A DNA stretch of 64,000 nt, from NCBI RefSeq assembly GCF_000971175.1, contig NZ_BBLY01000001.1:793709-857708 (forward strand), written 5' to 3'. The notes beneath the pieces were generated by a model. The model had not been told where the DNA came from. It saw only the letters and a program-made list of their open reading frames with translations, and ran no database searches. Position 1 is the stretch's first letter. Every line of letters starts with the position of its first letter. Of the stretch, positions 1,118 to 62,054 are shown one piece after another. A program made the translations under genes and the position numbers. Origin of the DNA: Demequina pelophila (GTDB taxonomy: Bacteria > Actinomycetota > Actinomycetes > Actinomycetales > Demequinaceae).

Positions 1118-3814
<2,697 letters not shown>

Positions 3815-20745: not shown

Positions 20746-23340
20746 CTAGGCCGTGCCCGCCGCCGATCCGCGCCCGCCCGGGCCGGCCTCCCCCGTGCGA
20801 TAGCGATACGAGCCCGCGACCGCCCGGTGGACCGCACCGTCGGGCAGCACCACCGTCCCGGACACCCCGGGCGGCAGCGTCACGTCGAGCGTGAACTCCT
20901 CCCCGTCCAGGGTCCAGCCGACCGCGATCTCGCCGGCCGGGCTGAGGTGCCGGGCGGAGGCGGAGGTCAGCCCGCCGCCGGGGCGGGGCCGGATCTCGAC
21001 CTCGCGGTAGCCCGGCGCGGACGGGGCGAGGCCCGCGACCACGCGGTGCAGGAAGTCCACCACCGCGCCGAGGGCGTAGTGGTTGAAGGACGTCATGTCG
21101 CCGGGATTGATCGAGCCGTCCGGGAGCATCGAGTCCCACCGCTCCCAGATGGTGGTGCCGCCCATCGACACCGTGTAGAGCCACGACGGGCACTCGGTCT
21201 GCAGCAGCAGCGCGTAGGCGTCGTCGAGATGTCCCGTCGAGGCGAGCGCGTCGCAGATGATCGGGGTGCCCACGAATCCGGTCTGGATCCGGTGTCCGCC
21301 CGCGCGCACGGCGCGCGACAGGAGGTCGCCCGCCCGCGCACGCATCGCATCGTCCACCGCCAGGTCGAACTCGATGACGAGCGCGAGCCCGGTGGGGGCG
21401 TCGGACAGCGACTCGAGGTCGGCGAGCCAGCGGCGCTGGATGCCTCCCAGTACCCGCCCGGCGAGGGCCTGGCAGCGCGCCGCCTCGGCGTCGCGGCCGA
21501 GCAGCGTCGCGGCCTGGGCCGCCATCCGTGCGGAGCGCACCGCGCAGGCGGAGGCGACAAGGTAGCGGTCGGTGCGGGCGTCGGCCGGGTCGTGCGGCGG
21601 GGCGGCGGGGTCGAGCCAGTCGCCCAGCTCCATCGACCCCTCGACCACGTCCGCGGCGCGCACGCGCTTCTCCACGTGGTCGAGCCACGCGAGCATGGAC
21701 GGGAACTGCCGCTCGAGCACCCCGACGTCGCCGCGCCTCTCGTACATCACCCAAGGCACCACGACCGCCGCGTCGCCCCACGCCATGGAGGCCCCGCGCG
21801 GGAACCCGCACTCGACCCACGGCACGAAGTTGGGCACCCAGCCGTCCTCGCCCTGCTCCGCGGCGACGTCGCGCAGCCACGAGCTGAGCACGCCGTCCGC
21901 CCCGTAGAGGAACTCGGCCGCGGGAGCGAACACCTGAATGTCGCCCGTCCAGCCCATGCGCTCGTCACGCTGCGGGCAGTCGGTGGGCAGGTCGACGAAG
22001 TTGTCGCGCATCGACCACACGGTGTTCTCGTGGAGGCGGTTGAGCATCGGGTCGGAACACTCGAACCAGCCGCGCCGCTCCATGTCGGTGTGGATGACGA
22101 CCGCCTCGACGTCGCCGTCGGCGAGGTCGCCCGGCCAATTCTCCAGCTCGGCGTAGCGGAAGCCATGGATGGTGAATCGGGGGCTCCACACGGCCGGGGT
22201 GCCGTCCGAGGTGTACGCGTCGATGGAGACGGCGCGGCGGAGCGGCCTGGTCCCCAGCGCATCGTTCTCGAGGACCTCGGCGTGGTGGAGCACGACGGTG
22301 TGGCCTGCCGGAGCGTCCACCCGGACGCGCAGCACTCCGGAGATGTTCTGGCCGAAGTCCAGCCGGATCCGGCCGTCGGGCCGGCGCTCGACCGCGACGG
22401 GCGTCAACGCCTCGATCGGTCGCACCGGCTCGTTGATCGCGGGCTCGAGGCGCGCGGCGAGATCCGAGACGTCGCGCCGCTCCGGCGCGGCCCAGCCCGC
22501 CGTGTCGTGTCCCGGCAGGTCCCACCCGGCCGGAAGCAGCCGCGCGTCGTAGCGCTCGCCCTCGTAGAGACCGGCGGCGGTCGCAGGTCCCGGGGCCGTG
22601 CGCCACGCATCCCCCAGGGGAACGATGCGGCGCTCGCCGGCGGCATCCTCCACCTCCAGCTGCGCGAGCAGGCCCACGTGCGCGCCGTACACGTCCCACA
22701 GACCGCCGTCGAAGCCGATGTTCCCGCGGAACCAGCCGTCGGCGAGCTCGGCGGCAAGCACGTTCGCGCCGGCGCGCAGCCGCTCGGTCACGTCGTGCAC
22801 GCGGTAGCGGTGGCGGTGGGTGTAGCTGGTCCAGCCGGGCGCCAGGTGCTCGTCGGAGACGGGGGCACCGTTGAGTCGGCCGACGTGGACGCCCGCCGAC
22901 GTCACGTACAGCCGGGCGGCGGCGGGCGCGGAGTCGAGCGTGAACTCGGCGCGCAGCAGCCACGACGGCCGGGTCACGTGCGGAGCGGACGCCGACGGCA
23001 CCACGAGCGGCTCGACCCAGTCGGCGGGCGCATAGAGAGCACCCTCGACCGGCAGCGGAGCGGACCACTCGGTCCACTCCCCCGCGACCTGGGCGCGCAC
23101 GCTCAGCTCGGTGCGCTCGCGCGACGCGAGCGGGGCGAACGGCCAGTCGATCAGGGTGTGGGCGTCCCCATCGACGTCTGCAGTGGTCTCGCCTCCGTCG
23201 CGGCGGATGCGGACCTGAGCCCGCTCCTGAGCTGACCCGGCGGGCGTCTCGGCGAGCCTCCACGACAGGCGCGGCGCCGGCAGCGGCGCCCCCAGCGCAT
23301 CGTCCCTGAGGCCCGCCCGGACCCCGACGACGGCGCTCAT
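20746..23340 (-). CDS. GH78 alpha-L-rhamnosidase
   Basis: This 864-residue glycoside hydrolase of family 78 has N-terminal beta-sandwich domains (Bac_rhamnosid_N at about 120-290), an alpha/alpha-barrel catalytic domain (about 380-730) with CPQRDERMGWTGDIQVFAP and GGTTIWERWDSM, and a C-terminal beta domain. These two segments carry the acidic and aromatic residues of GH78 active sites. There is no signal peptide, so it should act in the cytoplasm on imported rhamnosides or rhamnogalacturonan pieces, releasing L-rhamnose. The ATG overlaps the permease stop (ATGA). It supplies substrate for the rhaI operon. Confidence 0.93.
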   Translation of the reverse strand: MSAVVGVRAGLRDDALGAPLPAPRLSWRLAETPAGSAQERAQVRIRRDGGETTADVDGDAHTLIDWPFAPLASRERTELSVRAQVAGEWTEWSAPLPVEGALYAPADWVEPLVVPSASAPHVTRPSWLLRAEFTLDSAPAAARLYVTSAGVHVGRLNGAPVSDEHLAPGWTSYTHRHRYRVHDVTERLRAGANVLAAELADGWFRGNIGFDGGLWDVYGAHVGLLAQLEVEDAAGERRIVPLGDAWRTAPGPATAAGLYEGERYDARLLPAGWDLPGHDTAGWAAPERRDVSDLAARLEPAINEPVRPIEALTPVAVERRPDGRIRLDFGQNISGVLRVRVDAPAGHTVVLHHAEVLENDALGTRPLRRAVSIDAYTSDGTPAVWSPRFTIHGFRYAELENWPGDLADGDVEAVVIHTDMERRGWFECSDPMLNRLHENTVWSMRDNFVDLPTDCPQRDERMGWTGDIQVFAPAAEFLYGADGVLSSWLRDVAAEQGEDGWVPNFVPWVECGFPRGASMAWGDAAVVVPWVMYERRGDVGVLERQFPSMLAWLDHVEKRVRAADVVEGSMELGDWLDPAAPPHDPADARTDRYLVASACAVRSARMAAQAATLLGRDAEAARCQALAGRVLGGIQRRWLADLESLSDAPTGLALVIEFDLAVDDAMRARAGDLLSRAVRAGGHRIQTGFVGTPIICDALASTGHLDDAYALLLQTECPSWLYTVSMGGTTIWERWDSMLPDGSINPGDMTSFNHYALGAVVDFLHRVVAGLAPSAPGYREVEIRPRPGGGLTSASARHLSPAGEIAVGWTLDGEEFTLDVTLPPGVSGTVVLPDGAVHRAVAGSYRYRTGEAGPGGRGSAAGTA

Positions 23341-24233
23341 CCCTTCACCGCGCCGGAGGTCAGGCCCGCCATCACCTTCTGGTTGAGGAAGATGTAGAGC
23401 CCGAGCGTGCCGAACACCGTCACCGAGATGGCGGCGAACAGGGGCCCGTAGTTGACGGCGCCGTACTGACCCGTGAAGTTGAGCAGGCCCACCTGGATGG
23501 TGCGCAGGTCCGCCTTGGTCACGAAGGTCATCGCGACCAGCAGGTCGTTCCACAGGAAGAAGAACTGCACCAGCGCGACCGTGAAGATGGCGTTCTTCAC
23601 CAGCGGCAGGGTGACGTTACGGAAGATGCGCCACACGCTCGCGCCGTCGAGCGTCGCCGCCTCGAACACCTCGCGAGGGATGCCCCGCATGAAGGTGGCC
23701 AGCATGAAGACGGTCAGCGGCAGGCCGATCGCGGTGTAGGTGATGACGAGCGGCCACATGGTGCCCGTGATGCCGGCGCGGAAGTACATGGTGAACAGCG
23801 GCAGCAGGATCATCTGCGTGGGCACCATGATTCCCGCGAGGAAGAGGATGAGCACCACGCTCCGTCCCTTCCACACCAGGATCTGGAGCGCGAAGGCCGC
23901 GGCCGACCCGAAGATGATGACGAGAGCGAGCGACGGGAAGACGGCGAGCACCGAGTTCCGGATGTAGGTGCCCATCCCGCCATCGACGAACGCGGAGACG
24001 TAGTTGTCGAAGTTCCACTGCTGCGGCAGTGCCCAGAAGGGCTCCGACAGGAACTCCGGCTGCGTCTTGAAGGACCCCATGAGGATCCAGAACATCGGGT
24101 AGATCACGGTCGCGAGGACCAGCCCGAGGCCCACCCAGCCGGGGATGCGGCGCAGGCGCACGCTCAGAGGCTTTCCGGAGCGGCGTCGCTCCTGGGACCG
24201 GCCGCGGTCTGCGGGTGCCAGTGTGGTGGTCAT
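23337..24233 (-). CDS. CUT1 ABC importer permease (MalG-like)
   Basis: This 298-residue permease has a basic N-terminus, six predicted helices and the EAA loop (IPREVFEAATLDGASVWRIF, about residues 180-199) that contacts the ATPase. It pairs with the permease at 24230; start and stop overlap by 4 bp on both sides (ATGA), which implies coupled translation. The GH78 gene next to it suggests rhamnose-containing oligosaccharides as cargo. No ATPase gene is present in this operon. Confidence 0.9.
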   Translation of the reverse strand: MTTTLAPADRGRSQERRRSGKPLSVRLRRIPGWVGLGLVLATVIYPMFWILMGSFKTQPEFLSEPFWALPQQWNFDNYVSAFVDGGMGTYIRNSVLAVFPSLALVIIFGSAAAFALQILVWKGRSVVLILFLAGIMVPTQMILLPLFTMYFRAGITGTMWPLVITYTAIGLPLTVFMLATFMRGIPREVFEAATLDGASVWRIFRNVTLPLVKNAIFTVALVQFFFLWNDLLVAMTFVTKADLRTIQVGLLNFTGQYGAVNYGPLFAAISVTVFGTLGLYIFLNQKVMAGLTSGAVKG

Positions 24234-25114
24234 GATTCGGTCACGTCCCGTCGCATCGATCGGAAGATGAAGATGGTGACGAGCAGGCAGAGGATCGTCA
24301 GCACGAAGGCGACGGTCGAGCCGTACCCGTATTGCCCGTACGCGAAGCTGGTACGGAACATGTAGAGCGTGAGCGGCGTGGTGGCGCTTCCCGGGCCGCC
24401 GTTCGTCAGGGCGACGATGCTGTCGAAGACCTTCAGTGTGCCGTTGATCGAGAAGATCACGGCGGACAGCAGCACGGGCAGCGACATCGGGAGGACGATG
24501 CGTCGGATGAGCTTCCAGGTCCCGGCGCCGTCGATGCGCGCCGACTCCATCATGTCCTGGGGGATCTCGACCAGGCCGGCGTAGAGCAGCACGCCGTAGA
24601 AGCCCATCGAGCGCCACACGTCCATGAGGATGATGACCCAGAACGCGTAGCTCGGCGTGCCGAGGAAGTCGGTCAGATCACCGCCCAGCCACTGCAGGAT
24701 CGTGTTGACCGGCCCCTCCGTGGGCGCGGCCTCGAAGATGCGCGAGAACATCAGTGCCACGGCCACGGTGGGCAGGATCACGGGGAAGAAGATGGTGGTG
24801 CGCACCAGGGGCGACTTGTTCTGCAGGAAGAAGATGTAGACCAGCGCGAGGCCGTAGCCGACCGCGACCTGCAGCACGGTGGTCACCAGGGCGTAGCGCA
24901 CGGTGAACCACAGCGCATCGATCGCGGTGGGATCGCCGAAGAACTTGATCCAGTTGTCGAATCCGACGAACTCGAACCCCGAGATCGCGTTGCCGGCCTG
25001 GAAGGTATAGGTGACCGACCACAGGATCGGGATCACCATGACCACCGTGTAGATGGCGAGGGCCGGGAGGAGCATCACCACCGTGGCGGTGCGATTGCGG
25101 AAGACGGTATCCAC
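24230..25114 (-). CDS. CUT1 ABC importer permease (MalF-like)
   Basis: This 294-residue permease has six predicted helices and an EAA-type loop (IPQDMMESARIDGAGTWKLI, about residues 192-211). The GTG start at 25114 follows AAAGGA. It overlaps the second permease by 4 bp. An 82-bp gap carrying a long hairpin separates it from the upstream binding-protein gene, a common device to lower membrane-subunit output relative to the binding protein. Confidence 0.9.
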   Translation of the reverse strand: MDTVFRNRTATVVMLLPALAIYTVVMVIPILWSVTYTFQAGNAISGFEFVGFDNWIKFFGDPTAIDALWFTVRYALVTTVLQVAVGYGLALVYIFFLQNKSPLVRTTIFFPVILPTVAVALMFSRIFEAAPTEGPVNTILQWLGGDLTDFLGTPSYAFWVIILMDVWRSMGFYGVLLYAGLVEIPQDMMESARIDGAGTWKLIRRIVLPMSLPVLLSAVIFSINGTLKVFDSIVALTNGGPGSATTPLTLYMFRTSFAYGQYGYGSTVAFVLTILCLLVTIFIFRSMRRDVTES

Positions 25115-25150
25115 GAGAATCCTTTAGCGCGCAGAGTGTGAGGGGGGGAC

Positions 25151-25187
25151 CTCGGGTTCCGAGCCCGTGCGGGGCTCGGAACCCGAG
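25151..25187 (-). terminator. Intercistronic hairpin between binding protein and permease genes
   Basis: Perfect 16-base arms (CTCGGGTTCCGAGCCC and its complement) enclose a five-base loop, 10 bp after the binding-protein stop. No T-run follows on the minus strand. Partial termination or protection of the 3' end of the upstream message is likely. Confidence 0.7.
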
Positions 25188-25196
25188 GCAGGGGCG

Positions 25197-26540
25197 TCAG
25201 CCGTTCTGGGCCTGGACCAGCTCCATGAACTCCTGGCCGGAGAGGTTGCCGCCGGCGAGCGCGCCGCCGTTGGTCTGCGACACGGTGGTCGCGGCCGGCG
25301 AGAACGCCGCCTCGAACCACAGGACCGAGCCCGTCGCGTTCGCGATCTGATCCTGGACCATCGTGGTGAGCTCGGACTGCTCGGCGGGGGCGTCCGTGAT
25401 CTCGAAGCCGGTCACCTGACCCGCCTCGTTGAGCGCGACGTCGCCGTAGTTCTGCGCGATGCAGGCGACCCACTCGCCGATGTCGTCGGTGTACGCGCCC
25501 GCGCCGAACATCACCGGCACTCCGGCGTTCGCCGGCGTCTCGTCGATGCTTCCGGCGCCGCCCTCGACCTCAGGGAAGGGGAAGTAGCCGATGTTGTCGA
25601 TGCCGATCTGGTTCTGCGACTCGTCGTTGAAGTTTCCGAGCGCCCAGCTGCCCATGTAGAACATGGCGGCGCCGCCCGTGAGGAACTGGTTCATCGCCGT
25701 GTCGTAGTCGATCGAGCCCGGCGCGGGGCCGAAGAAGCCGGACTCACCGAGCGCCGCCACCGCCTCCGCTCCCTCGACGTACTCCGGGTCGGTCAGGCTC
25801 GCCTCGCCGTCGGCGACCTTCTGCATCGCGTCGGCGCCGAGCGAGCGGAAGATGTAGTTGCCGACGAGCCGGGTGACGGGCCAGCCCTCGGTGCCGGAGG
25901 CGCTCAGCGGCTGGATGTCTGCGGCCTGCAGGGTCTCGGCGACCACGACGAAGTCGCCCCACGTCTCGGGGACGTCCACGCCGGCGTCCTCGAACAGCGC
26001 CTTGTTGTACCAGAATCCCTCGATGTTGTACTCGGTCGGGAGGGCGTAGAGGTCGTCGGACTGGTACAGCTGCTTGAGCGTGGCCTCGGCCGCGGGGAGC
26101 ACCGCGCCCTCGACGCCCAGGTCGGCGAGCACCTCGGACAGGTTGACCACCAGTCCGGCCTCGATCCATTCGGTCATGAGCGACGGCGTGCCGGGCGCCA
26201 TCTGCATCGCGGGCAGCGCGTCGTTGGCCGCGAGCACCTGGAGCTGCTGGTCCCACTGCTCGGCGGCGATCGAGTCGGTCACCAGCGGCGTGCCGTCGGC
26301 GGCAGCGGCGCACGCGCCGGCCTCCAGCGACTCGAGGGTGGCCGCGATGAGGGTGTTCGAGGTCTGGCCGGTGTAGGTGAACTCGTCGCTGGAGGTCATG
26401 GACTCACCGCCGTCGCCGGCGGCGGTCGAACTGTCCTCCGAGTCCGAGGACCCGGAGCACGCGGCGAGGGCCAGCGCGCTCGCCCCGATGAATGCCACGG
26501 CAGCGAGAGACCGGCGGCCGCGCCCAATGTGATTCTTCAC
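25197..26540 (-). CDS. CUT1 ABC importer substrate-binding lipoprotein
   Basis: This 447-residue extracellular solute-binding protein (family 1) has a lipoprotein signal peptide with lipobox ALAAC (Cys 28), a Ser/Asp-rich linker and the two-lobe binding domain; NIEGFWYNKALFEDAGVDVPETWGDF near residue 185 is typical. The GTG start at 26540 follows AGGAGG by 4 bases. It is the first gene of the minus-strand rhamnosidase operon. The ligand is probably a rhamnose-containing oligosaccharide, by context. Two operator-like sites lie directly upstream. Confidence 0.92.
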   Translation of the reverse strand: MKNHIGRGRRSLAAVAFIGASALALAACSGSSDSEDSSTAAGDGGESMTSSDEFTYTGQTSNTLIAATLESLEAGACAAAADGTPLVTDSIAAEQWDQQLQVLAANDALPAMQMAPGTPSLMTEWIEAGLVVNLSEVLADLGVEGAVLPAAEATLKQLYQSDDLYALPTEYNIEGFWYNKALFEDAGVDVPETWGDFVVVAETLQAADIQPLSASGTEGWPVTRLVGNYIFRSLGADAMQKVADGEASLTDPEYVEGAEAVAALGESGFFGPAPGSIDYDTAMNQFLTGGAAMFYMGSWALGNFNDESQNQIGIDNIGYFPFPEVEGGAGSIDETPANAGVPVMFGAGAYTDDIGEWVACIAQNYGDVALNEAGQVTGFEITDAPAEQSELTTMVQDQIANATGSVLWFEAAFSPAATTVSQTNGGALAGGNLSGQEFMELVQAQNG

Positions 26541-26550
26541 GATTCCTCCT

Positions 26551-26589
26551 TGAATCGATTCCGAGGCGCTCCGGCTTTGAAGCGCTTCA
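26551..26589 (-). promoter_or_regulatory. Paired operator-like sites upstream of the rhamnosidase operon
   Basis: TGAATCGATTCC (26551-26562) touches the ribosome site of the binding-protein gene. TGAAGCGCTTCA (26578-26589), extended to a perfect 16-base palindrome TTTGAAGCGCTTCAAA, lies 15 bases further upstream. Both resemble LacI sites but differ from the four exact 12-mers, so they may belong to the operon's own LacI protein. Confidence 0.5.
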
Positions 26590-26802
26590 AACGTCACCAT
26601 AGGAGCGTTATGCAGTGGAGTCAAAAGGGACCCTCCCGGGCGTCGTGCTGCCTGAGGAGGGCGGGCCCGAACTTCGCGGCGCGATCATCACTCCTGGAAA
26701 AACGCCTACTCGCGCGAGGAGTTCGCCCGCCGCCCGGGGCGCGCGCCGCTGACGGAGAGGCACCGCGAGGGGTTGTGAACGTTCTCAGGAATGCCTCGTT
26801 AC

Positions 26803-26930
26803 TGAATCGATACAATCCCGCAGCTCCGCCCCCGCTCGACACCCGCCGCGGTGCCCGGCGGCGCGCCCGCCCGGGAAGCCCGGGGCCCCGAACTGGCGCG
26901 CAGCCCCCGAACTGTGATTGAATCGTTTCA
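26803..26930 (+). promoter_or_regulatory. Upstream region of rhaD with LacI operators
   Basis: This is part of the 499-bp gap between the divergent binding-protein and rhaD genes. TGAATCGATACA at 26803-26814 is a near match. The exact TGAATCGTTTCA lies at 26919-26930, abutting a -10-like TGTGAT at 26913-26918, 110 bp before the rhaD start. No good -35 box is visible. The rest of the gap shows no further gene. Confidence 0.5.
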
Positions 26931-27039
26931 AGGCGGGGCTTGCACGTGCGGGACGCGCGCATCGGCCTCACCCGAGAAACGTGACGACGCAGCAGCGATG
27001 CTGCGCCGCTCCCCACCCAACAACCACAGGAGCACCACA

Positions 27040-27864
27040 GTGACCATCGAGAAGCCCAAGCCCACGCTCGACGAGATGATCGCCCAGATCGGCGAGTGCG
27101 GCTACCGCATCTGCGAGATCGACGCGTCCGAGGCCGGCGCCGGCAACATCTCCGTCTACATGGGCTGGGACGTGGAGGTCCGCCGCCACTTCCCCAATGC
27201 CGAGGAGATCGAGCTTCCCGTCCCCGCCCCCGCGCTCGCCGGCGGCACCGTGCTCGCGACCGGCTCGGGCCGCCGCCTGCGCCAGATCGAGGCCGAGCCC
27301 CTGTCCGCCATCGGCGCCGTGAAGATCCACGAGGGCGGCCTCACCGGCACGCTGTACACCGCGAACACCCGCAAGTTCGCCCGCCTGACCTCGGAGTTCA
27401 ACTCGCACCTGGCCGTCCACCAGGACCAGGTCGAGCGCCGCGGCATCGACTTCCAGGCCGTGGTCCACGCGCAGCCCCCGCACCTCACCTACCTGTCGCA
27501 CATCCCGGCCTACCGCTCCAACGAGCGCATGAACCGCGCGATCCTGCGCTGGGAGCCGGAGACCATCGTGTCGCTGTCGCAGGGCATCTGCGTGCTCGAG
27601 TTCATGATCCCGGGCTCCGAGGAGATGGGGAAGGCCAACGTCGAGGGCCTGCGCGACTACGAGATCACCCTGTGGTCCAAGCACGGCACCATGTCCCGCT
27701 CGGACGTCTCGGTCTTCCGCGCGGTCGACCGCGTCGAGTACGCCGAGACCGGCGCCAAGTACGAGTACATGGACCTGGTCGCCGGCGGCCGCGCCGAGGG
27801 CCTGTCCGCGGAGGACATCCGCGAGGTCGCCGACACCTTCGGCATCAAGTCGCAGTGGCTCTGA
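27040..27864 (+). CDS. rhaD: Rhamnulose-1-phosphate aldolase, E. coli RhaD type
   Basis: This 274-residue class II aldolase has the same length as E. coli RhaD and aligns along its whole length: GNISVYMGWDV near 35, TGSGRR at 74-79, LTSE with Glu 119, VVHAQ with His 143, MIPGSEEMG at 189-197 and WSKHG with His 215. It cleaves L-rhamnulose-1-phosphate to DHAP and L-lactaldehyde. The second His of the HxH metal motif is Gln 145 here. The GTG start follows CAGGAG. It stands alone behind an exact LacI operator and duplicates the aldolase activity of RhaEW. Confidence 0.88.
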   Translation: MTIEKPKPTLDEMIAQIGECGYRICEIDASEAGAGNISVYMGWDVEVRRHFPNAEEIELPVPAPALAGGTVLATGSGRRLRQIEAEPLSAIGAVKIHEGGLTGTLYTANTRKFARLTSEFNSHLAVHQDQVERRGIDFQAVVHAQPPHLTYLSHIPAYRSNERMNRAILRWEPETIVSLSQGICVLEFMIPGSEEMGKANVEGLRDYEITLWSKHGTMSRSDVSVFRAVDRVEYAETGAKYEYMDLVAGGRAEGLSAEDIREVADTFGIKSQWL

Positions 27865-30012: not shown

Positions 30013-30108
30013 GGCGGGGGACGATGCGCGGGGGGCCTTTGGTCCCGGGCGCCCTGCTTGCGCTCCGCAGCCGCAGCGCTCCCGCCCCGCCTCGCCCCCA
30101 GCGCCCCA

Positions 30109-30157
30109 GGAGGTGCTCAGTGCCCAAAATCACTGATTCTGGGCACTGAGCACCTCC
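30109..30157. repeat. 49-bp near-perfect palindrome
   Basis: Perfect 18-base arms (GGAGGTGCTCAGTGCCCA and its complement, 30109-30126 and 30140-30157) continue inward through a 13-base centre with a single mismatch, so almost the whole 49 bp is self-complementary. Its A/T-containing core differs from the surroundings. It could be a bidirectional terminator for fucO and the protease gene or a small palindromic mobile repeat. Confidence 0.75.
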
Positions 30158-30162
30158 GGAGA

Positions 30163-30290
30163 CGCACGGGCGAGGCGGCGGACCCACGGGCGAGGCGGCC
30201 GGCGCACGGGCGAGGCGGCCGGCGCACGGGCGAGGCGGCCGGCCCACGGGCGAGGCGGCCGGCGCACGGGCGAGGCGGCCGGCCCACGCG
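30163..30290. repeat. 20-bp tandem repeat, about six units
   Basis: Units of CACGGGCGAGGCGGCCGG plus two variable bases repeat every 20 bp, with the joint base alternating between G and C. The array starts just after the palindrome and ends 27 bp before the protease stop codon. The pattern is a minisatellite; there are no spacers and no CRISPR features. A partial inverted copy (CCCCGCCTCGCCCC) lies near 30085. Confidence 0.8.
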
Positions 30291-30316: not shown

Positions 30317-31711
30317 TCAGGCCGGGCCCGCGATGAGCGTGACGTCGGCGGTGTGGGCGTCGCCGCTCGCGTCGGTCCAGGCGAGGCTCACGGTGTCGCC
30401 GGGCTCGTACTCGGCGAGCGCCGTGGCCAGCTCGGAGCCGCTCGTCACGGCCGTCCCGTCGACCTGGGTGACGGTGTCGCCCGCGGCGAGCCCCGCATCG
30501 GCCGCCGGGGTGTCCGCGTAGACGTAGGCGATCTGGGCGCCGTCGTCGCTGGTGACCACGCCGATCCGCCCGTCCGCCGTACGTCCGAGGCCGGTGTCGG
30601 AGCTCACCGCGACGCCCAGGAAGGCCGGATAGCCGATCGAGACGCCGTCGGACTCGTCGCCCGCCTGGATCTGCGCGACGATCGCGAGCGCCTCGTCGAT
30701 GGGCACGGCGAACGCGATGGTGGTCGAGAGCCCGGACGATGCGGCGGTGGTCATGCCCACCACCTCGCCCTCGTCGTCGAGCAGCGCGCCGCCGGAGTCG
30801 CCGGAGACCACGTCGGCGGAGAACTGGATCATGCCGTCGAGGGTCTCCCCCGCCACCGTGTACGACGAGGAGGTGGTGACGGTCGAGTCGAGGCCGTTCA
30901 CCGTGCCGTCGGCGGCCAGCAACACGCCGCCGCCCTCGGAGTTGCCCACGGCGGTGATCGCGTCGCCCACCGCGAGTTCGTCGTCGTCGATCGCGACGGT
31001 CGCGAGGCCGCTCGCGCCGTCGAGCTGGAGCAGTGCGACGTCGTCCTCGGCGTCGGTGCCCAGCACCGTCGCGGCGTAGGTCTCCCCGGACGACGCGATG
31101 GTCACCGTGATCTCCGTCGAGCCCTCGATCACGTGGTTGTTGGTGAGGACCAGGCCGTCGCTGGTGAGCACCATGCCGGTGCCGGCGGCCTCGGCCTCCT
31201 GGTAGCCCAGGACGGTGTCGATGAGGACCACGCCGGTGGACTCGGAGTCGTCGGCCGCGGTGGCCTCCTCTTGCGTGGAGCCGTACGTGTTGCCGTACGC
31301 GGAGCCGCCGTAGGTGCCGCCGTTGGTCGCGCCGCCGTCGGCGCCGTACGAGCCGTCATTGCCGTACGAGCCGTAGCTCCCGTAGGCGCCCGGGCCGCCG
31401 CGCATGCCCGGCATCGCCTGGGGCATCGCGGCCGCGCCGCCGAGCGCCGCGCCACCGCCGTCGGTGCCGCCATCCGTGGTGCCGTCGAGCGCGAGGCCGT
31501 CCGACGCATCGTCCGCTGTCGCGACCTGCGCGGCCGTCGTCGCCGCATCGTCCTCGAAGGTGGCCGCGGCGCCGATGGTGAGGCCCGCGAGCGCGAGGAC
31601 GGAGGCGCCCGCGAGCATGCGGGTGCGCGTGGTGCCGAACCGGCGGCGGGGCCGCACGTAGGCGACCGTCTCCGCGCTGACGGGGCTGTCGGGGTACCGG
31701 ATCTCGCTCAT
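30317..31711 (-). CDS. Membrane-anchored trypsin-like serine protease with PDZ domain (HtrA-like)
   Basis: This 464-residue protein has a short basic N-terminus, one membrane segment (about 38-55), a Gly/Tyr/Ser-rich linker with repeated YGS motifs, a trypsin-like domain and a C-terminal PDZ domain. The triad is seen in TNNHVIEG (His), EDDVALLQLD (Asp) and VVSGDSGGAL (Ser). Such DegP/HtrA-like proteins act outside the membrane in protein quality control. ATG 31711 is chosen because AGGAGG lies 6 bases upstream; an in-frame ATG eight codons earlier has no such site. Confidence 0.9.
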   Translation of the reverse strand: MSEIRYPDSPVSAETVAYVRPRRRFGTTRTRMLAGASVLALAGLTIGAAATFEDDAATTAAQVATADDASDGLALDGTTDGGTDGGGAALGGAAAMPQAMPGMRGGPGAYGSYGSYGNDGSYGADGGATNGGTYGGSAYGNTYGSTQEEATAADDSESTGVVLIDTVLGYQEAEAAGTGMVLTSDGLVLTNNHVIEGSTEITVTIASSGETYAATVLGTDAEDDVALLQLDGASGLATVAIDDDELAVGDAITAVGNSEGGGVLLAADGTVNGLDSTVTTSSSYTVAGETLDGMIQFSADVVSGDSGGALLDDEGEVVGMTTAASSGLSTTIAFAVPIDEALAIVAQIQAGDESDGVSIGYPAFLGVAVSSDTGLGRTADGRIGVVTSDDGAQIAYVYADTPAADAGLAAGDTVTQVDGTAVTSGSELATALAEYEPGDTVSLAWTDASGDAHTADVTLIAGPA

Positions 31712-31791
31712 GATCTCCTCCTCGAAGTTCCTCATACCTTCACTCCACTCCCCTGTCCGGGGAACGGACCCAGAGGAACCTGGGAGAACGC

Positions 31792-31995
31792 TCAGAGTGC
31801 GGACTCGCGCGCGCCCACCTCCCTGATCGCCTGCGGCACGGTCTCGACGGGACGCGAGCGCCAGCCGCCGCGCTGGGCGCGCAGGTCCTCGCCGTCACGC
31901 ACGATCCACGCCGCGATGCGCCCGGTGGCCGTCTCGATCACCGCGGTCTGGCCCGCGCGATCGGCGGCGTAGTAGACGAGTTGCGGACCGAGCAC
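31792..31995 (-). CDS. Short open frame, possibly truncated
   Basis: This 67-codon frame has protein-like composition in its middle (TAVIETATGRIAAWIVRDGEDL) but begins inside the 59-bp repeat at 31966. Its original 5' end may have been replaced. I recognise no family and see no convincing ribosome site. It may be a remnant or not a gene at all. Confidence 0.22.
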   Translation of the reverse strand: MLGPQLVYYAADRAGQTAVIETATGRIAAWIVRDGEDLRAQRGGWRSRPVETVPQAIREVGARESAL

Positions 31996-32024
31996 CCCGC
32001 CATGGTCGGCGCGGGGGCCGACAC
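31966..32024. repeat. 59-bp dispersed repeat, copy A
   Basis: It matches 34740-34798 in the same orientation with only a few mismatches; both hold GTAGTAGACGAGTTGCGGAC and CATGGTCGGCGCGGGGGCC. In copy B the sequence is part of a serine-recombinase reading frame. The two copies flank the surface-protein gene. Confidence 0.75.
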
Positions 32025-32045
32025 TGTCAGGGCCACCAGGCCCTC

Positions 32046-32231
32046 TCCGTGTCCACGGAGGCCCGGAGAGCGGCAGCGTGGGGCCGTGTCTTCAGCGAGT
32101 CCCTCACCCGAGGCGAGGCGAGCACCGACGCGTGGCCCGCTGGCCACTCCGCGCACCCCGCCGACTCCGAGGACGAGTTCGCGGTCAGCCTGCGCAAGCA
32201 GGTCCAGCATCTCGACTCGATCGGAGGCTGA
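32046..32231 (+). pseudogene. Unassigned C-terminal coding remnant
   Basis: A frame ending in a TGA at 32229-32231 reads STEARRAAAWGRVFSESL and, at its end, DEFAVSLRKQVQHLDSIGG. The composition is protein-like and unlike shadow frames. It begins shortly after repeat copy A without a credible start, so it looks like the tail of a lost gene, perhaps from an integrated element. No family is recognised. Confidence 0.35.
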
Positions 32232-32232
32232 C

Positions 32233-32475
32233 AGGCAACCGTCACACCGGAAGCGCGAACAGGTCGCCGACTTCCTGCATCAGGGTCTCGGACGCAACGA
32301 GATCGCCCGGCGCGCCGAGGTCTCCCCGGCCACGGTCGGCAGGATCGCCCGCGAGGAGGGGGGTGACGTTCGACCGGTCGCAGATGGTCGAGGCGACGAG
32401 AATCGCGAGCGCCGACGCCCGCTACAAGCGCCAGATGCTGGCGTCGAACCCGCTCGGTGCCATCGAGTCTGCTCG
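32233..32475 (+). pseudogene. Helix-turn-helix protein remnant with frameshift
   Basis: The first frame reads REQVADFLHQGLGRNEIARR followed by AEVSPATVGRIAREEG, a clear HTH resembling small phage or element proteins of actinobacteria. After a run of six G at 32358-32363 the sense continues in another frame as VTFDRSQMVEATRIASADAR, which is the usual continuation of that protein type. One extra G explains the break: a real inactivation or a sequencing error. No start codon is evident. Confidence 0.5.
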
Positions 32476-32592
32476 GATGCGGCTGGCGCAGCAGGACAGC
32501 GCGGCGGGCTGCTGCCCGGGCGAAGCGGTGTCCGGATACGACTCCGCCCCGACCCGTGAGGAGGGGCCGGGGCGGTGTCTGCCTGCGCAGGG

Positions 32593-34203
32593 TCAGGCGT
32601 CCTGGCGGCGGCGGGCGACGACGGTGAAGCCGGCGCCGGCGAGGATCAGTGCGGCACCACCACTGCCCAGGAGGAGCGTCGAGTCATCGACGCCAGTGTG
32701 GGCGAGGGACGATGCGGTCGTAGTGACCACCGCGTCCGACGAGCCGGTCTTGGCGACGGCCGCCTCCAGGTGGGCCGCGGCGGGCGTCGACGTGCGCTGG
32801 GCGATCGGCTGCATGGCGGTCGACGCGCTGTCCGCCTGGGCTATAGCCTCCTTGGCTGCAGCGGCCTGGGTGCCGCTGAAGGGAACCTCAAGCTGCGGCT
32901 CAGCGACCGTGATCGGCGTCGGCCTCGCGCTCGGAACGAGCGTCGGCGTCGCGGTAGGCGTTTTGGTCGGCACGAAGTACGGCGTCGCCTGCGAGAGCGT
33001 CGGCGCCGCCGCGGTGCCGATCTGCGACCCAGGGGTCGGAGAGGTGCCACCCGTTGAGACTCCGGGACCCGGGATCACGTACGTGGTGATCGGGCCGTCC
33101 GGCGTCCCGACCTGCAGCGTGAAGCCCGACTGGCCTTCCTGGTTCTGCGAGTCGTCCGACTTCGGGGGCGCCACGACCGGGGCGTCCGCCTTCGGCGGAA
33201 TGAGGGTCGGCGAGGTCGGAGCCGGCGGCGCGTAGTTCGGGTCCTTGGCCGAGTTCGCATCATCCGGGACCGGCGACGTGCCACCGACGATCGAGCCCGG
33301 GGTGGGGATCACGATCGTCTGGTCGGCGTTGGGGTCCTTGGCCGAGTTCGCATCCGCCGGAACCGGCGAGGTACCGCCCACGGTGGCGCGGGTGTCGGGG
33401 ATGACCACGTACTGGTCCTGGTCCGCATCCTGATTCTGCGAGTCGTCCGACTTCGGGGGCGCCACGACCGGGGCGTCCGCCTTCGGCGGAATGAGGGTCG
33501 GCGAGGTCGGAGCAGGCGGCGCGTAGTCGGGATCCTTGGCCGAGTTCGCGTCGGCCGGGACCGGCGAGGTGCCGCCCACGGTGGTGCGGGTGTCGGGGAT
33601 GACCACGTACTGGTCCTGGTCCGCATCCTGATTCTGCGAGTCGTCCGACTTCGGGGGCGCCACGACCGGGGCGTCCGCCTTCGGCGGAATGAGGGTCGGC
33701 GAGGTCGGAGCCGGCGGCGCGTAGTTGGGGTCCTTCGCGGAGTTGGCATCGTCGGGAACCGGCGAGTCGGCGGAGATGGTCTGCTGCGGCTCCGGGGTGA
33801 CGATGACCGGCGCGGGCGAGGTGTCGGTGACCGTGTCGCGGGTGTCGTCGACCACGACGGTCTGGTCGGCCTTCGGCGGCTCGACCACAGGGGTCGCCGA
33901 CTTCGGCGGAATCAGACGGGGGGCGACGGGCGCCGGCGGCGCGTCGACCTGAGCGGGGGTCTTCTGCGACCCGTTCGGGTCGTCGAGCGTGTTGGTGGCC
34001 GGCACGCAGATCTCTTCGGTGCCGCCGTTGGTGGTGGTGGCCTCGACGGTTCCGCCGGCGGCGGCGCAGGCGCCGGCGTCCACAGCGGCCGTTGCGGTGG
34101 AGATCGCGAAGGGCGCGACCGTGAGAGCGGCCGCGGCGGCGAGGGTGCCGGCGGTGATGCGAATGGCGGGTCGTGCGGCGGTGGAACGTCGTGCGTGCCT
34201 CAT
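32593..34203 (-). CDS. Repeat-rich LAHTG sortase-anchored surface protein
   Basis: This 536-residue secreted protein has a signal peptide (RHARRSTAARPAIRI, then a hydrophobic stretch to about residue 40), a long Pro/Asp/Lys-rich repeat region (about 75-360), a Pro/Thr linker, and a C-terminal sorting signal LAHTG near residue 500, followed by a hydrophobic helix and ARRRQDA. LAxTG is typical of actinobacterial class E sortase substrates. The repeat unit is 66 residues. The protein is likely a wall-attached stalk or adhesin without a recognisable binding domain. It is flanked by the 59-bp repeat copies and by gene remnants. Confidence 0.85.
   Translation of the reverse strand: MRHARRSTAARPAIRITAGTLAAAAALTVAPFAISTATAAVDAGACAAAGGTVEATTTNGGTEEICVPATNTLDDPNGSQKTPAQVDAPPAPVAPRLIPPKSATPVVEPPKADQTVVVDDTRDTVTDTSPAPVIVTPEPQQTISADSPVPDDANSAKDPNYAPPAPTSPTLIPPKADAPVVAPPKSDDSQNQDADQDQYVVIPDTRTTVGGTSPVPADANSAKDPDYAPPAPTSPTLIPPKADAPVVAPPKSDDSQNQDADQDQYVVIPDTRATVGGTSPVPADANSAKDPNADQTIVIPTPGSIVGGTSPVPDDANSAKDPNYAPPAPTSPTLIPPKADAPVVAPPKSDDSQNQEGQSGFTLQVGTPDGPITTYVIPGPGVSTGGTSPTPGSQIGTAAAPTLSQATPYFVPTKTPTATPTLVPSARPTPITVAEPQLEVPFSGTQAAAAKEAIAQADSASTAMQPIAQRTSTPAAAHLEAAVAKTGSSDAVVTTTASSLAHTGVDDSTLLLGSGGAALILAGAGFTVVARRRQDA
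33141..33770. repeat. Internal 198-bp tandem repeats of the surface-protein gene
   Basis: Blocks starting at about 33141, 33431 and 33629 share TTCTGCGAGTCGTCCGACTT and the following 100 or so bases nearly identically. The last two are exactly 198 bp apart, equal to 66 codons. The unit codes for PPAPTSPTLIPPKADAPVV and related Pro-rich text. High DNA identity suggests recent expansion or exchange. Confidence 0.8.
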
Positions 34204-34422
34204 TGAGCTACTACCTTCCTCAGCTGACAAGAACTGGACGCCCCTCGCCCCTTCGCGAGGGAGCGTCCGCTGACAACTATCGGCTGGCACCGCATGCCCG
34301 AACCCGGGACCGGCGTCTTGGCTTTCGTCAACTTTCGGTTAACTGCAAGTGACAACTCGTGCCGCATACGACATTTGCGCCAAGACGAGCTCTTGGGTGA
34401 TGCGCGCCTGAGCCGAGAGCGC

Positions 34423-34560
34423 TCAGCCCGCGGGGCCGACCAGCCGCACCGCACCGCCTGGCCGCGCCTGCCCCAACGCCTGGAGCGACCCGAGGCGCAC
34501 CAGCGCGACCACCGGATACCCGCCCGTGGTCGGGTGGTCCGCGAGGCAAAGGAGGCCAAC
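34423..34560 (-). pseudogene. C-terminal remnant of 5-oxoprolinase subunit C (PxpC/KipA-like)
   Basis: The minus-strand frame reads LLCLADHPTTGGYPVVALVR, then LGQARPGGAVRL and a stop at 34423. The LADHPTTGGYPV motif is characteristic of the end of the biotin-dependent carboxyltransferase-like subunit of 5-oxoprolinase. The frame is cut at about 34560, where serine-recombinase coding sequence begins on the other strand. Only about 45 codons remain and no partner subunits are present. Confidence 0.6.
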
Positions 34561-34566
34561 CAGTCG

Positions 34567-34883
34567 CCGCCTACGTCGATGAAGGCCGCTCCGGCACCTG
34601 CTCCAACCAACCCCAATGGCGTGCACTCCTGGAGGACGCCAAGTCGGGCAAGATCGATGCGGTCGTGGTGGCCAAGTCCGACCGCTTCGCCCACAAGGCG
34701 CCGGATGCCATCGGCGAGACCGACCGGCTCGCCGAGTTCGGCGTAGTAGACGAGTTGCGGACCGTGCACGATGCCATGGTCGGCGCGGGGGCCGACACCG
34801 GTCGGGCGGCCGCCAACGGCACACGGAAGCCGGGCCGATCGCAACCGACCCGGCCTCTCGTCACGGTCGTGCCGTGGCCGTGA
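34567..34883 (+). pseudogene. Serine recombinase (resolvase) fragment
   Basis: The plus frame reads AYVDEGRSGTCSNQPQWRAL followed by LEDAKSGKIDAVVVAKSDRF, the middle of a serine-recombinase catalytic domain (compare the family's DAVVVxKxDR motif). The active-site Ser region at the N-terminus and all DNA-binding domains are missing. The frame runs on to a stop at 34883 through the 59-bp repeat copy B. It is a non-functional relic of a mobile element. Confidence 0.6.
34740..34798. repeat. 59-bp dispersed repeat, copy B
   Basis: This copy lies inside the recombinase fragment and matches 31966-32024 in direct orientation. The interval between the two copies, about 2.7 kb, contains the surface-protein gene and the HTH remnant. 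Confidence 0.75.
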
Positions 34884-35325
34884 ACTCGAGCCTCACCGAG
34901 CCCGGCGGGGCCTTGTCCAGGCTGTGCCGTCGCAGGGCGACGATACTGAGGCCCGCGATGAGCCATGCAATGGCCCCGGCGGCCGCACCCGCGATCACGT
35001 GCGTGTGGAAGTCACCGACCAGACCCTCGCTCACGACCGCGAAGACGCCGAAGGCGCCCAGCAGCACCCCTCCCACGAGGTTGGTGATCGCGTTCGCACG
35101 GCCGCGCACGAACACCGCGGCGACCGCGACGGCGAGCGGGAAGACCGCCATACCTGCCATGAACAGCGAGTCTCCTGTGGTGATCGGTTCGCCCTCCATG
35201 GTGCCGGCGACCGCCTCCTCGAGCACGCCGACCTCGTAGAAGAACACCACCATCGCGCCCACGAGAGCGACGCCTGCGGCGACCCACAGGATCGCGAATC
35301 GCATCCTTTCGAGTGTGGAGCCCAT
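34861..35325 (-). CDS. Hypothetical four-helix membrane protein
   Basis: This 154-residue protein has four hydrophobic segments (about 9-29, 52-71, 80-103 and 111-133). I recognise no family. The ATG at 35325 (GSTLERMRFAIL) is chosen because GGAGAGGAG lies about 9 bases upstream; upstream in-frame ATGs at 35334 and 35376 are poorer. Its 3' end overlaps the end of the degenerate recombinase frame on the other strand by 23 bp. Confidence 0.65.
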   Translation of the reverse strand: MGSTLERMRFAILWVAAGVALVGAMVVFFYEVGVLEEAVAGTMEGEPITTGDSLFMAGMAVFPLAVAVAAVFVRGRANAITNLVGGVLLGAFGVFAVVSEGLVGDFHTHVIAGAAAGAIAWLIAGLSIVALRRHSLDKAPPGSVRLEFTATARP

Positions 35326-35476
35326 GTCGACCATCTCCTCTCCGACTCCACGGGGACGTCCTTGTCCCTCTCCCATTGTCCCGCCGCGCGCGGCCGGGCG
35401 CGCCGCGCGACGTCGCGCGGGGACCGCCCCCGTAGGAGCGGCCCCCACGCGACGGCGCGTCGCCTCGGACCTGGCC

Positions 35477-36271
35477 TCAGACCTGGGCCTCCCGCGCCCG
35501 AGCAGCGGCGGCGCGCCACGTGTCGCGGTCGACGCCCTTGACCAGCAGCCAGATCGCGAAGACCAGCTCGCCCGGGATCGCGAGCACGATCACGACCATC
35601 TCCCACGTACCCGCCAGCTCGGGGACCAGGAAGGTGCCGAAGCTCTGGAGCAGGTAGCCGGCGCCCGCGAGCGCCAGGAGGATGCCGGAGATGCGCGGCA
35701 GGAAGCCCGACCGGACCACCAGCCACCCGGTGATGAGCAGCGACAGCGCGAAGAAGAAGCCCCAGACGAGTACCAGGCCCTCGTTCGCCTCTTGGAAGAA
35801 CAGCGCGAGGCCGTCGCGCTGCGCCGCGGAGAACGGGTCGAGCGCGCCGCTCTCGCTCAGCGCGTGGAGCGTGAAGACGCTGGTCGCGAGGCACCCGGCC
35901 GCCATCACGACGGCCTCGGCGACGCGGGCGAACGCTCCCGCGAGCGACATCGCCCGGCTCACCGGCCGCAGCAGCGCGTAGAGGACGGCTGCGAGCACGA
36001 TCTCGATGAGGACGATCGCCGCCTCTCCCGCCAGGCCCCATCGGAACAGGGCCTCGTCGGCGCGGATCGCGTCGGCCGTGGCGGCGGCGTCGCCGGGCAC
36101 CACGAGCGTCGAGCGCACGCTGGTCGCGAGCGGGTAGATGACGAAGATGGCCAGGTAGAGCACGCCCGCCAGGGTGGTGAGCCGGCGGAGGCGGCGGTCC
36201 GTTCCGTAGACCGGGGCCGATGCGACGGCCGGGTCGGGCGTGACGGCTGCGGTGGGGGTCGGGGATGACAT
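35477..36271 (-). CDS. DUF4386 family integral membrane protein
   Basis: This 264-residue protein has about six to seven membrane helices; the ordering and motifs (RRLTTLAGVLYLAIFV near 28-43, GLVLVWGFFFALSLLITG near 170) fit DUF4386. Function is unknown for the family. The start follows AAGGAG by 5 bases. The leader contains a G-rich tandem repeat at 36287-36365. Confidence 0.82.
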   Translation of the reverse strand: MSSPTPTAAVTPDPAVASAPVYGTDRRLRRLTTLAGVLYLAIFVIYPLATSVRSTLVVPGDAAATADAIRADEALFRWGLAGEAAIVLIEIVLAAVLYALLRPVSRAMSLAGAFARVAEAVVMAAGCLATSVFTLHALSESGALDPFSAAQRDGLALFFQEANEGLVLVWGFFFALSLLITGWLVVRSGFLPRISGILLALAGAGYLLQSFGTFLVPELAGTWEMVVIVLAIPGELVFAIWLLVKGVDRDTWRAAAARAREAQV

Positions 36272-59315: not shown

Positions 59316-62054
59316 ATGACTGTGACCGCCGACCCCGGCGCGCCCGAGCGCGCCCAGGCCGCGCCCACCGGGAGCCCGACCGCGCACCCCGAGGCGCCCC
59401 ATGCATCGTCCCCGGACCAAGTCCTCGCCCACCTGGCGAGCGCCGCGACGGGCCTGACCCACGCCGACGCGGACCAGCGCCTCGCCGAGCACGGCCCCAA
59501 CGCGCTGCCCGAGCCGCCCAGGAAGCACCCCGTGCTGCGCTTCCTCGCGCACTTCAACGACGTCCTCATCTACGTCCTGCTGGGCGCCGCCGCGCTCAAG
59601 GCGTACATGCAGGACTGGGTCGACTTCTCCGTGGTGCTGGGCGTGGCCGTCATCAACGCGATCATCGGCTTCGTGCAGGAGGGCCAGGCCGAGCGCGCGC
59701 TCGACGGGATCCGCAACATGCTGTCCTCCGAGGCGCAGGTGCTGCGCGACGGCCACTGGGTCGCGGTCCCGGCCGAGTCCGTGGTGCCGGGCGACGTCGT
59801 GCGCGTGCGCGCCGGTGACCGGGTCCCCGCGGACCTGCGCCTGATCGAGTGCGCGAACCTCCAGGTGGACGAGGCGGCCCTGACCGGCGAGTCGGTCGCC
59901 GCGATCAAGGACACGGCTTCGGTCGCGGCCGATGCCGGCATCGGCGACCGCACCTCGATGCTCTACTCGAGCACCATCGTCGCGACGGGCACCGGCGTGG
60001 GCGTCGCGGTCGCGACCGGCACCGCCACGGAGATCGGTCGCATCCAGCAGATGGTCACCTCCGCGGAGACCATGGAGACGCCCCTGTCGCGCCAGCTCGC
60101 GCGCTTCGGCAAGCAGATCGCCTTCGGCATCCTCGCCATGTGCGCCGTCATGATCGTCGTGGGCACCGTGATCCACGACTTCGGCTTCAACGAGCTGGTC
60201 TCCGCGACCATCGGCTTCGCGGTCGCCGCGATCCCCGAGGGCCTCCCCGCCGTCGTCACCATCACGCTCGCGCTGGGCGTCGCCCAGATGGCGCGCCGCC
60301 AGGCGATCGCCCGCAAGCTCACCGCGGTGGAGGCGCTCGGCTCCGTCACCGTCATCTGCTCGGACAAGACCGGCACGCTCACCCAGAACGAGATGACCGT
60401 CCGCACCGCGATCACCCGCGGCGGCGAGTTCGCCGTCGAGGGCACCGGCTACGCGCCGGAGGGCCTCGTGCGGGTGGACGATGCGGTGGTCACCCTGGAC
60501 ACCCGCCCGGACCTGGCGGCCCTGGTGGTCGCGGCCGCGAGCTGCAACGACGCCCGCGTGGTCGAGGAGGACGGCCGCTGGCGCGTGGTGGGCCAGCCCA
60601 CCGAGGGCGCGATCGCGACGTTCGCGCTCAAGACCGGCATGGACCTGTCCGACGTCACCCGCATCGCGGAGGTGCCGTTCGACTCGGCGCACAAGTACAC
60701 GGCGACGCTGAACGCGACCGCGGAGGGCACCGTCCTGCGCGTCATGGGCGCCCCGGACCGCCTGCTCGAGCGCTGCACGCACCAGCGCGCCGCGGACGGC
60801 TCGCTCGAGCCGCTCGACGCGGACTTCTGGCACGCGCAGATCGACCGCCTCGCGGCGCAGGGCCTGCGCACGCTGGCGGGCGCGCACCGCCCCGTGGCGG
60901 CCGATGCCTCGGCCGAGCTGGACCACGACGACGTCGACGGCCTGGTGTTCCTGGGCCTGTTCGGCATCGTGGACCCGCCGCGGCCCGAGGCCATCGACGC
61001 GATCCGCGAGTGCCACTCCGCCGGCATCCGCGTGAAGATGATCACCGGCGACCACGCCGGCACGGCCACCGCGATCGCCCGCGAACTGGGCATCGCCCCC
61101 GCGACCGGCGAGGTCCGCCACCTCACGGGCGCCCAGCTCGAGGCCATGAGCCAGGACGAGCTCGAGGCCTGCGCGCACGACGTCGACATCTACGCCCGCA
61201 CCTCCCCCGAGCACAAAATCCGCATCGTCAAGGCGCTCCAGGCGCACGACGAGGTCGTGGCCATGACCGGCGACGGCGTCAACGACGCCCCCGCACTGCG
61301 GAGGGCCGATGTGGGCGTCGCCATGGGCATCAAGGGCACCGAGGCGACCAAGGAGGCCGCGGACATCGTCCTCGCCGACGACAACTTCGCCACCATCGAG
61401 CGCGCCGTCGAGGAGGGTCGACGAATCTACGACAACATCCGCAAGTCGGTCGTGTTCCTGCTGCCCACCAACGGTGCGCAGTCGCTCGTCATGCTGGTCG
61501 CGGTGCTGTTCGGGCTGACGCTGCCCCTGGTGCCGGTGCAGATCCTCTGGGTCAACCTGGTGTGCGGCACCACGCTGTCGCTCGCGCTCGCCTACGAGAA
61601 GGCCGAGCCCGGCCTCATGAAGCGGCCGCCGCGCGGCTCCGGCGGCTCGGTGCTGTCGAAGTCCTCGTTCGCGCACATCGTGGTCGCGTCGCTCCTCATC
61701 GGCGGCGCCACGCTGGGCGTGTACTGGTGGGCCGCGGGCGCCGGGATCGACACCGCGCTCGCGCAGACCCTGACCGTCACCACCCTGGTGCTCAGCCAGG
61801 TGGCGTACCTGTTCAACTGCCGCTTCCTCAACGCCACGTCGCTCACGACGCGGGCGCTCACGGGCAGCGCGGCGGTGTGGATCGCGATCGGCGCGCTCAT
61901 GACGTTCCAGCTGCTGTTCACGTACGTGCCGTTCATGAACTCCTGGTTCAACTCGGCGCCGCTGAGCCTCTCCGACTGGGGCCTCACGGCCACCATCGCG
62001 GTGGGTGTGTTCCTCCTGCTCGAGGGCTACAAGGCGCTGGCGCGCCGGCGCTGA
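59316..62054 (+). CDS. P2-type cation-transporting ATPase (copy 2)
   Basis: This 912-residue pump has the same layout as copy 1 at 1118: N-terminal cation-ATPase domain, TGES, PEGLP in M4, DKTGTLT with Asp 350, KMITGDH and GDGVNDAP. M6 reads [15 protein letters not shown], again without the SERCA Asp. ATG 59316 is chosen over the GTG at 59259, which lies in the TetR stop region. The first 35 residues are a variable Ala/Pro-rich leader. Unlike copy 1 it is in an operon with a TetR gene, so the two pumps are probably made under different conditions. Confidence 0.93.

Follow-up and report, generated by a model that had tools for sequence, protein, structure and literature searches.

In mycobacteria, one published account gives the P1 promoter motif as tTGTCRgtg, 8 nt, TannnT (PMC5656591), and another describes PafBC as engaging a -26 promoter motif (PMC11804915). 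The locus described here lies in a 64,000-nt stretch of Demequina pelophila DNA (the window) and resembles the P1/PafBC DNA-damage promoter in one respect: both copies of a direct repeat, and 7 of 13 genes of a small-protein family, share the TGTCRG box and the exact N10 spacing to NANNNT. Where the TANNNT of P1 opens with T, the -10 element of the direct cases opens with G or C (G in both copies), and the start codon stands 6-7 nt past the -10, that is, the transcript would be leaderless if the element is used. A second point of comparison is offered by the LPXTG/LAXTG sortase substrates of Actinobacteria (class E sortase), with which the surface protein encoded here shares a hydrophobic N terminus, proline-rich repeats, an LAHTG anchor and a hydrophobic tail followed by RRR, whereas for the body of the protein no clear relative was found. 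The general kind of locus is the decayed genomic island, or recombination scrap region; here too truncated phage-type, recombinase and metabolic gene fragments lie side by side, but this one also holds a surface gene that is complete and unshared and, directed toward it, the duplicate of a promoter-like start. No description of this arrangement was recognised in a literature search, judged on brief entries.

The preliminary description of this DNA saw two near-59-bp direct repeats around a surface-protein gene as fitting the insertion, or duplication by recombination, of a cassette beside a decayed element. But what are these repeats? We think it likely that the region is a scrap island assembled by illegitimate joins, in which the repeat represents two front ends of one island-borne small-gene family and not the bounds of a cassette. 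The features of the region are as follows.

30317-31735, minus strand: left flank, HtrA-type trypsin/PDZ protease gene
31792-31995, minus strand: intact small gene; it encodes 67 aa and belongs to an unnamed family of small proteins almost confined to the genus
31965-32024, minus strand: repeat copy A, with a P1-like element and the GTG start and opening codons of the 67-aa gene
32038-32475, plus strand: relic of a gene pair, with the last part of a 126-aa gene and the first part of a 149-aa HTH gene, 72% to the pair in a congener (G012)
32540-32579, minus strand: G+C-rich hairpin directly 3' of the surface gene, terminator-like with no T run (fold of 32530-32600, z -3.7)
32593-34203, minus strand: surface-protein gene with hydrophobic N-terminus, 198-nt in-frame repeats and LAHTG sorting signal (residues 499-533)
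34224-34276, minus strand: strong hairpin in the surface-gene leader, between TTGTCAG boxes at 34224-34230 and 34270-34276 (fold of 34204-34300, z -4.3)
34441-34551, minus strand: tail of a pxpC-type carboxyltransferase (CT_A_B), last ~37 aa, rest missing (PF02626 positions 223-259 of 261, E 2e-7)
34563-34724, plus strand: internal fragment of a serine recombinase, N-terminal part missing (Resolvase PF00239 positions 34-87 of 145, E 4e-8)
34739-34798, minus strand: repeat copy B, with the same P1-like element, GTG start and about ten codons; a 5' stump
34861-35322, minus strand: right flank, here DUFm, a 153-aa probable membrane protein with no Pfam match over the cut-off

The repeats themselves are real. 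Copies A and B are identical at 56 of 60 positions, with a 26-base exact run at each end; BLAST gives a 60-bp match at 93%, a longer version of the pair runs to 69 nt at 88%, and in 30 order-3 Markov sequences of 64 kb the longest exact repeat reached only 16-22 bases. The search for the repeat elsewhere that the preliminary description had called for returned these two copies and no third at E <= 0.001 in the organism's own genome (2,682,991 bases, 11 contigs; 40 of 114 first-look candidates scored), and an exact 25-mer of the repeat had no occurrence in viral contigs. In copy A, the P1-like element TGTCGG...GACCAT occupies 32002-32023 and is followed by the GTG start of the small gene at 31993-31995. 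Copy B has the same element at 34776-34797 and a GTG at 34767-34769, after which come codons for HGPQLVYYA; the sequence then departs from the small-gene family and the remainder of the gene is missing. The 3' limit of the repeat thus falls just within the family's opening stretch, M..xQLxYYA. Since copy A opens an intact family gene, copy B is the stump of one and the motif is conserved, the repeat is a duplicated front end consisting of a promoter-like element and a start, intact in A and cut off in B. Its upstream half is probably a promoter, as judged from sequence.

How widespread is the small gene? By protein search, the family occurs in 10 of 44 genomes of the genus, which means 9 of the 43 others; four of these nine have at least two copies, so multiple copies in a genome are common. 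In an even draw of the order (297 genomes), matches were found in eight genomes belonging to 3 of 94 genera, and the two that lie beyond the genus are only weakly matched (E 5e-5 and 9e-5). The open reading frame at copy A aligned with seven homologues over most of its length at 44-69% identity, and its homology to the family thus spans most of the protein. This alignment comprises 8 of the 15 family matches, its own included, and omits two with an internal stop, two near-identical copies from one genome (G060) and three that are partial or divergent. No Pfam, PHROG, NCBIfam or PADLOC model matched the small gene, and PADLOC matched none of five proteins tried. A collection of genome contigs yielded 341 pattern stretches for the small protein, zero of them confirmed, and phage and plasmid collections gave no match at 0.1; all these collections may omit the window's own genome or near ones. 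A single-sequence fold prediction of the small protein (mean pLDDT 59) was set aside. Among 20 neighbours of family genes, Pfam matched seven (tail tape-measure, Gp49, HTH_3, DUF932, DUF3800, HTH_21 and one beta-lactamase-family protein) and left 13 unmatched; most of the matched ones we take to be island-type genes. In G060, two contigs of 82 and 55 kb (C2 and C3) carry three nearly identical small-gene copies sharing 75 nt upstream, which suggests a mobile repeat.

TGTCRG-N10-NANNNT-N6/7-start precedes the seven of 13 distinct family loci mentioned above, a tally that includes the window's own and drops the two G060 duplicates from the 15 matches. Both repeat copies retain the motif, and the spacer sequences are unalike among the motif-bearing loci. 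Simulated upstream regions contained on average 0.0016 motifs per set of 13, with a maximum of one in 5000 draws. Of 414 control ORFs from the same stretches a single one had the motif, a figure that understates the background because each ORF's most upstream start was used. That ORF (L161:10752-12173, in genome G004) encodes a C-5 cytosine DNA methylase preceded by a leaderless P1-like motif, in a region that also holds a small-family gene. Both strands of 26 long sequences (937,304 strand-bases) hold 15 matches in all: seven ahead of family genes, one at copy B, one ahead of a small membrane-protein ORF overlapping a family gene (L093), and six others, three of which precede open frames of 271, 346 and 474 codons, the control counting only the last. 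In four of the 13 loci the motif is absent from the 400 nt upstream even on a looser search. Within the window the pair of box and hexamer occurs four times against 1.69 expected, a number reached by 12 of 100 shuffles; the weight of the motif is its fixed position before family genes, not its rarity. We infer that it could be a DNA-damage promoter of the P1/PafBC type. No sigma-70 consensus was found in 31700-35000. At L093/L158 and at a second locus of the same genome, G010 (L084/L151), the small gene partly overlaps the ORF in front of it, which encodes a small membrane protein, and a P1-like motif lies ahead of the pair, strict in the former and looser (TGTCAC) before the similar unit at L084; a two-gene module is possible.

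What surrounds the two front ends fits the graveyard of mobile genes of the preliminary description, as four truncated pieces are found within 2.8 kb: the small-gene stump, the recombinase interior, the pxpC tail and the HTH gene pair. The HTH relic and the 5-oxoprolinase remnant named there both held up. The window ORF across 32038-32475 matches phrog_5536 (E 6e-8), as does the HTH gene of the G012 pair, whose reading frames are open and which is followed by a gene with a NOV_C domain. The organism's own intact pxpC (G000:C8) is 66% similar to the tail over 32 aa and that of another congener (G059) 74% over 35 aa, which disfavours the idea that the tail is a copy of the resident gene. These matches show what the fragments are. 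Rfam at gathering cut-offs returned nothing from 31700-35500. One plasmid match to 31700-35000 (111 bp, 73%, Sinorhizobium, within the surface gene) was taken as chance.

Our preferred reading runs as follows. Copy A belongs to a whole small gene, and the direct repeat is a doubled promoter-like region plus start; a second copy of the small gene would have lost its body and become joined to recombinase scrap, leaving the 5' stump that is copy B; and the 2.8 kb between the flanking genes would have built up around a single complete surface-protein gene as fragments were joined illegitimately. The comparisons above show that copy A's gene is homologous to the family, that diverged relatives keep the promoter-like motif and that copy B is truncated; in what order things happened, and how the pieces were joined, we infer. 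Where did copy B come from? Family copies in other genomes are mostly far apart (G060 excepted) and A and B are 93% alike, so copy B may have arisen on the spot by duplication instead of arriving independently. A more specific version, in which the small gene was duplicated in tandem at this place and its second copy then underwent deletions and insertions, draws on the same 93% identity and on the absence of a third copy among the candidates scored in the genome; no other duplicated part is seen in the flanks, and we regard this version as possible but doubtful. It overlaps the preferred reading and differs from it solely in the origin of copy B, so the likelihoods given here do not sum to one.

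Could a 2.77-kb segment with the surface gene instead have entered the small gene at its 5' end, 60 bp of that gene being duplicated or serving as an att site and copy A keeping the gene whole? Without such a segment, DUFm, the small gene and the HtrA gene would align in a row on the minus strand, and the lack of a clear relative of the surface gene in 43 congeners also counts in favour. Target duplications are usually far shorter than 60 bp, however, and the other contents of the supposed insert are truncated gene fragments. No intact recombinase, integrase or transposase was seen between the repeats, only an internal 63-aa recombinase fragment. The relatives do not show the row either. Close HtrA homologues (E below 1e-50) are found in 20 of 43 congeners and DUFm in four, and in 13 stretches from relatives (10 around HtrA and three around DUFm, the fourth DUFm genome, G059, being left out), none from a genome of the same species, HtrA and DUFm never occur together (tblastn, E <= 1e-6) and no match to the small gene or the surface gene turned up beside either flank. 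We therefore hold this insertion to be unlikely. Both repeats being 5' ends of one small-gene family in scrap DNA, the neat cassette of the preliminary description is possible but not supported.

On its other side the HtrA gene has partly conserved company: in G030, relatives of window genes from 20746-27864 lie within 9 kb 3' of HtrA (74-75% for two, 37% for a third), and in G017 a 38% relative of the third such gene is placed likewise. The break in gene order is thus on the 5' side of HtrA, at the start of the scrap. Downstream of the HtrA gene, tandem 20-base repeats occupy window positions 30163-30290, beside an imperfect 37-bp inverted repeat at 30096-30170. Elsewhere in the window, ~2100-3100 and ~60350-61350 share many 24-mers in register some 58 kb apart, likely a long duplicated segment.

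The preliminary description also placed copy B inside a serine-recombinase relic; the relic stands, but copy B adjoins it with an overlap of about two codons. The fragment lacks the N-terminal part of the resolvase domain, which is not complete; the catalytic serine of these enzymes sits nearer the N terminus. On the plus strand, copy B continues the frame of the fragment without a stop, and the Resolvase match to the read-through product stops at residue 64, some two codons inside copy B. When the query is lengthened by 20 or 46 residues, taken from the repeat and beyond, the Pfam score of 34.1 bits becomes 34.8 or 34.2, and the shifts in the three PHROG scores stay between -1.5 and +0.5 bits. 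In tblastn, some alignments to recombinases reach query residues 68-83, deeper into copy B, and four of the 186 phage records, like two of the 26 from plasmids, cover at least 80% of the 83-aa query; because some pairwise alignments extend further into the repeat, a partial overlap is admissible and recombinase sequence may run some way into copy B, but the small gene accounts for the whole of the repeat. It is very improbable that the repeat stems from a decayed recombinase element, with copy B as coding sequence of the enzyme and copy A as a second fragment of one. The stop-free frame and the few alignments that extend partly or fully speak for this, but the profile matches stop some two codons inside copy B, and copy A opens a conserved gene that lies on the opposite strand.

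This leaves the one complete gene in the scrap other than the small gene. The repeat-rich LAHTG protein is borne out, in-frame repeats of 198 nt included. Its gene has a third-position G+C of 0.89, a coding-type composition, and the anchor reaches 18.0 bits with TIGR01167, whose cut-off is 15.9; with NF041528 and NF058582 the protein stays under their respective cut-offs. The protein has a predicted signal peptide (hydropathy only), an anchor motif, a hydrophobic tail (also from hydropathy) and a basic end. With the anchor motif present and five sortase matches in the genome, the gene looks complete. Relatives are scarce: one weak C-terminal match in the 43 congeners (G029, E 4e-4; 33 of up to 47 candidates scored in many genomes), zero confirmed among 90 pattern stretches in the collection of genome contigs, and no plasmid match at 1e-5. 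The leader boxes are the sole two TTGTCAG sites in the window, where TTGTCRG is not enriched (4 found, 7.87 expected); the pair is found in 6 of 162 loci, every one an overlapping copy of the same place. A terminator scan gave one site (0.7 expected), which is this leader hairpin; the hairpin at 32540-32579 is not among its sites.

The promoter-like element of copy B aims at the surface gene on the same strand, 566 nt away, and that it might serve this gene is suggested by orientation and distance only. One could go further and propose an island-spread, genus-restricted family of ~65 aa with its own leaderless damage-type promoter, whose duplicate, copy B, now drives or co-drives an orphan sortase-anchored surface gene; we consider this quite unlikely. 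If true, copy B as the promoter of the surface gene would mean that DNA damage alters the cell surface. Beyond this, the locus illustrates that a neat pair of direct repeats can be two gene front ends rather than the termini of a mobile element, and it points to a small-gene family, as yet without a name, that sits on actinobacterial islands and has a conserved promoter which may respond to damage.
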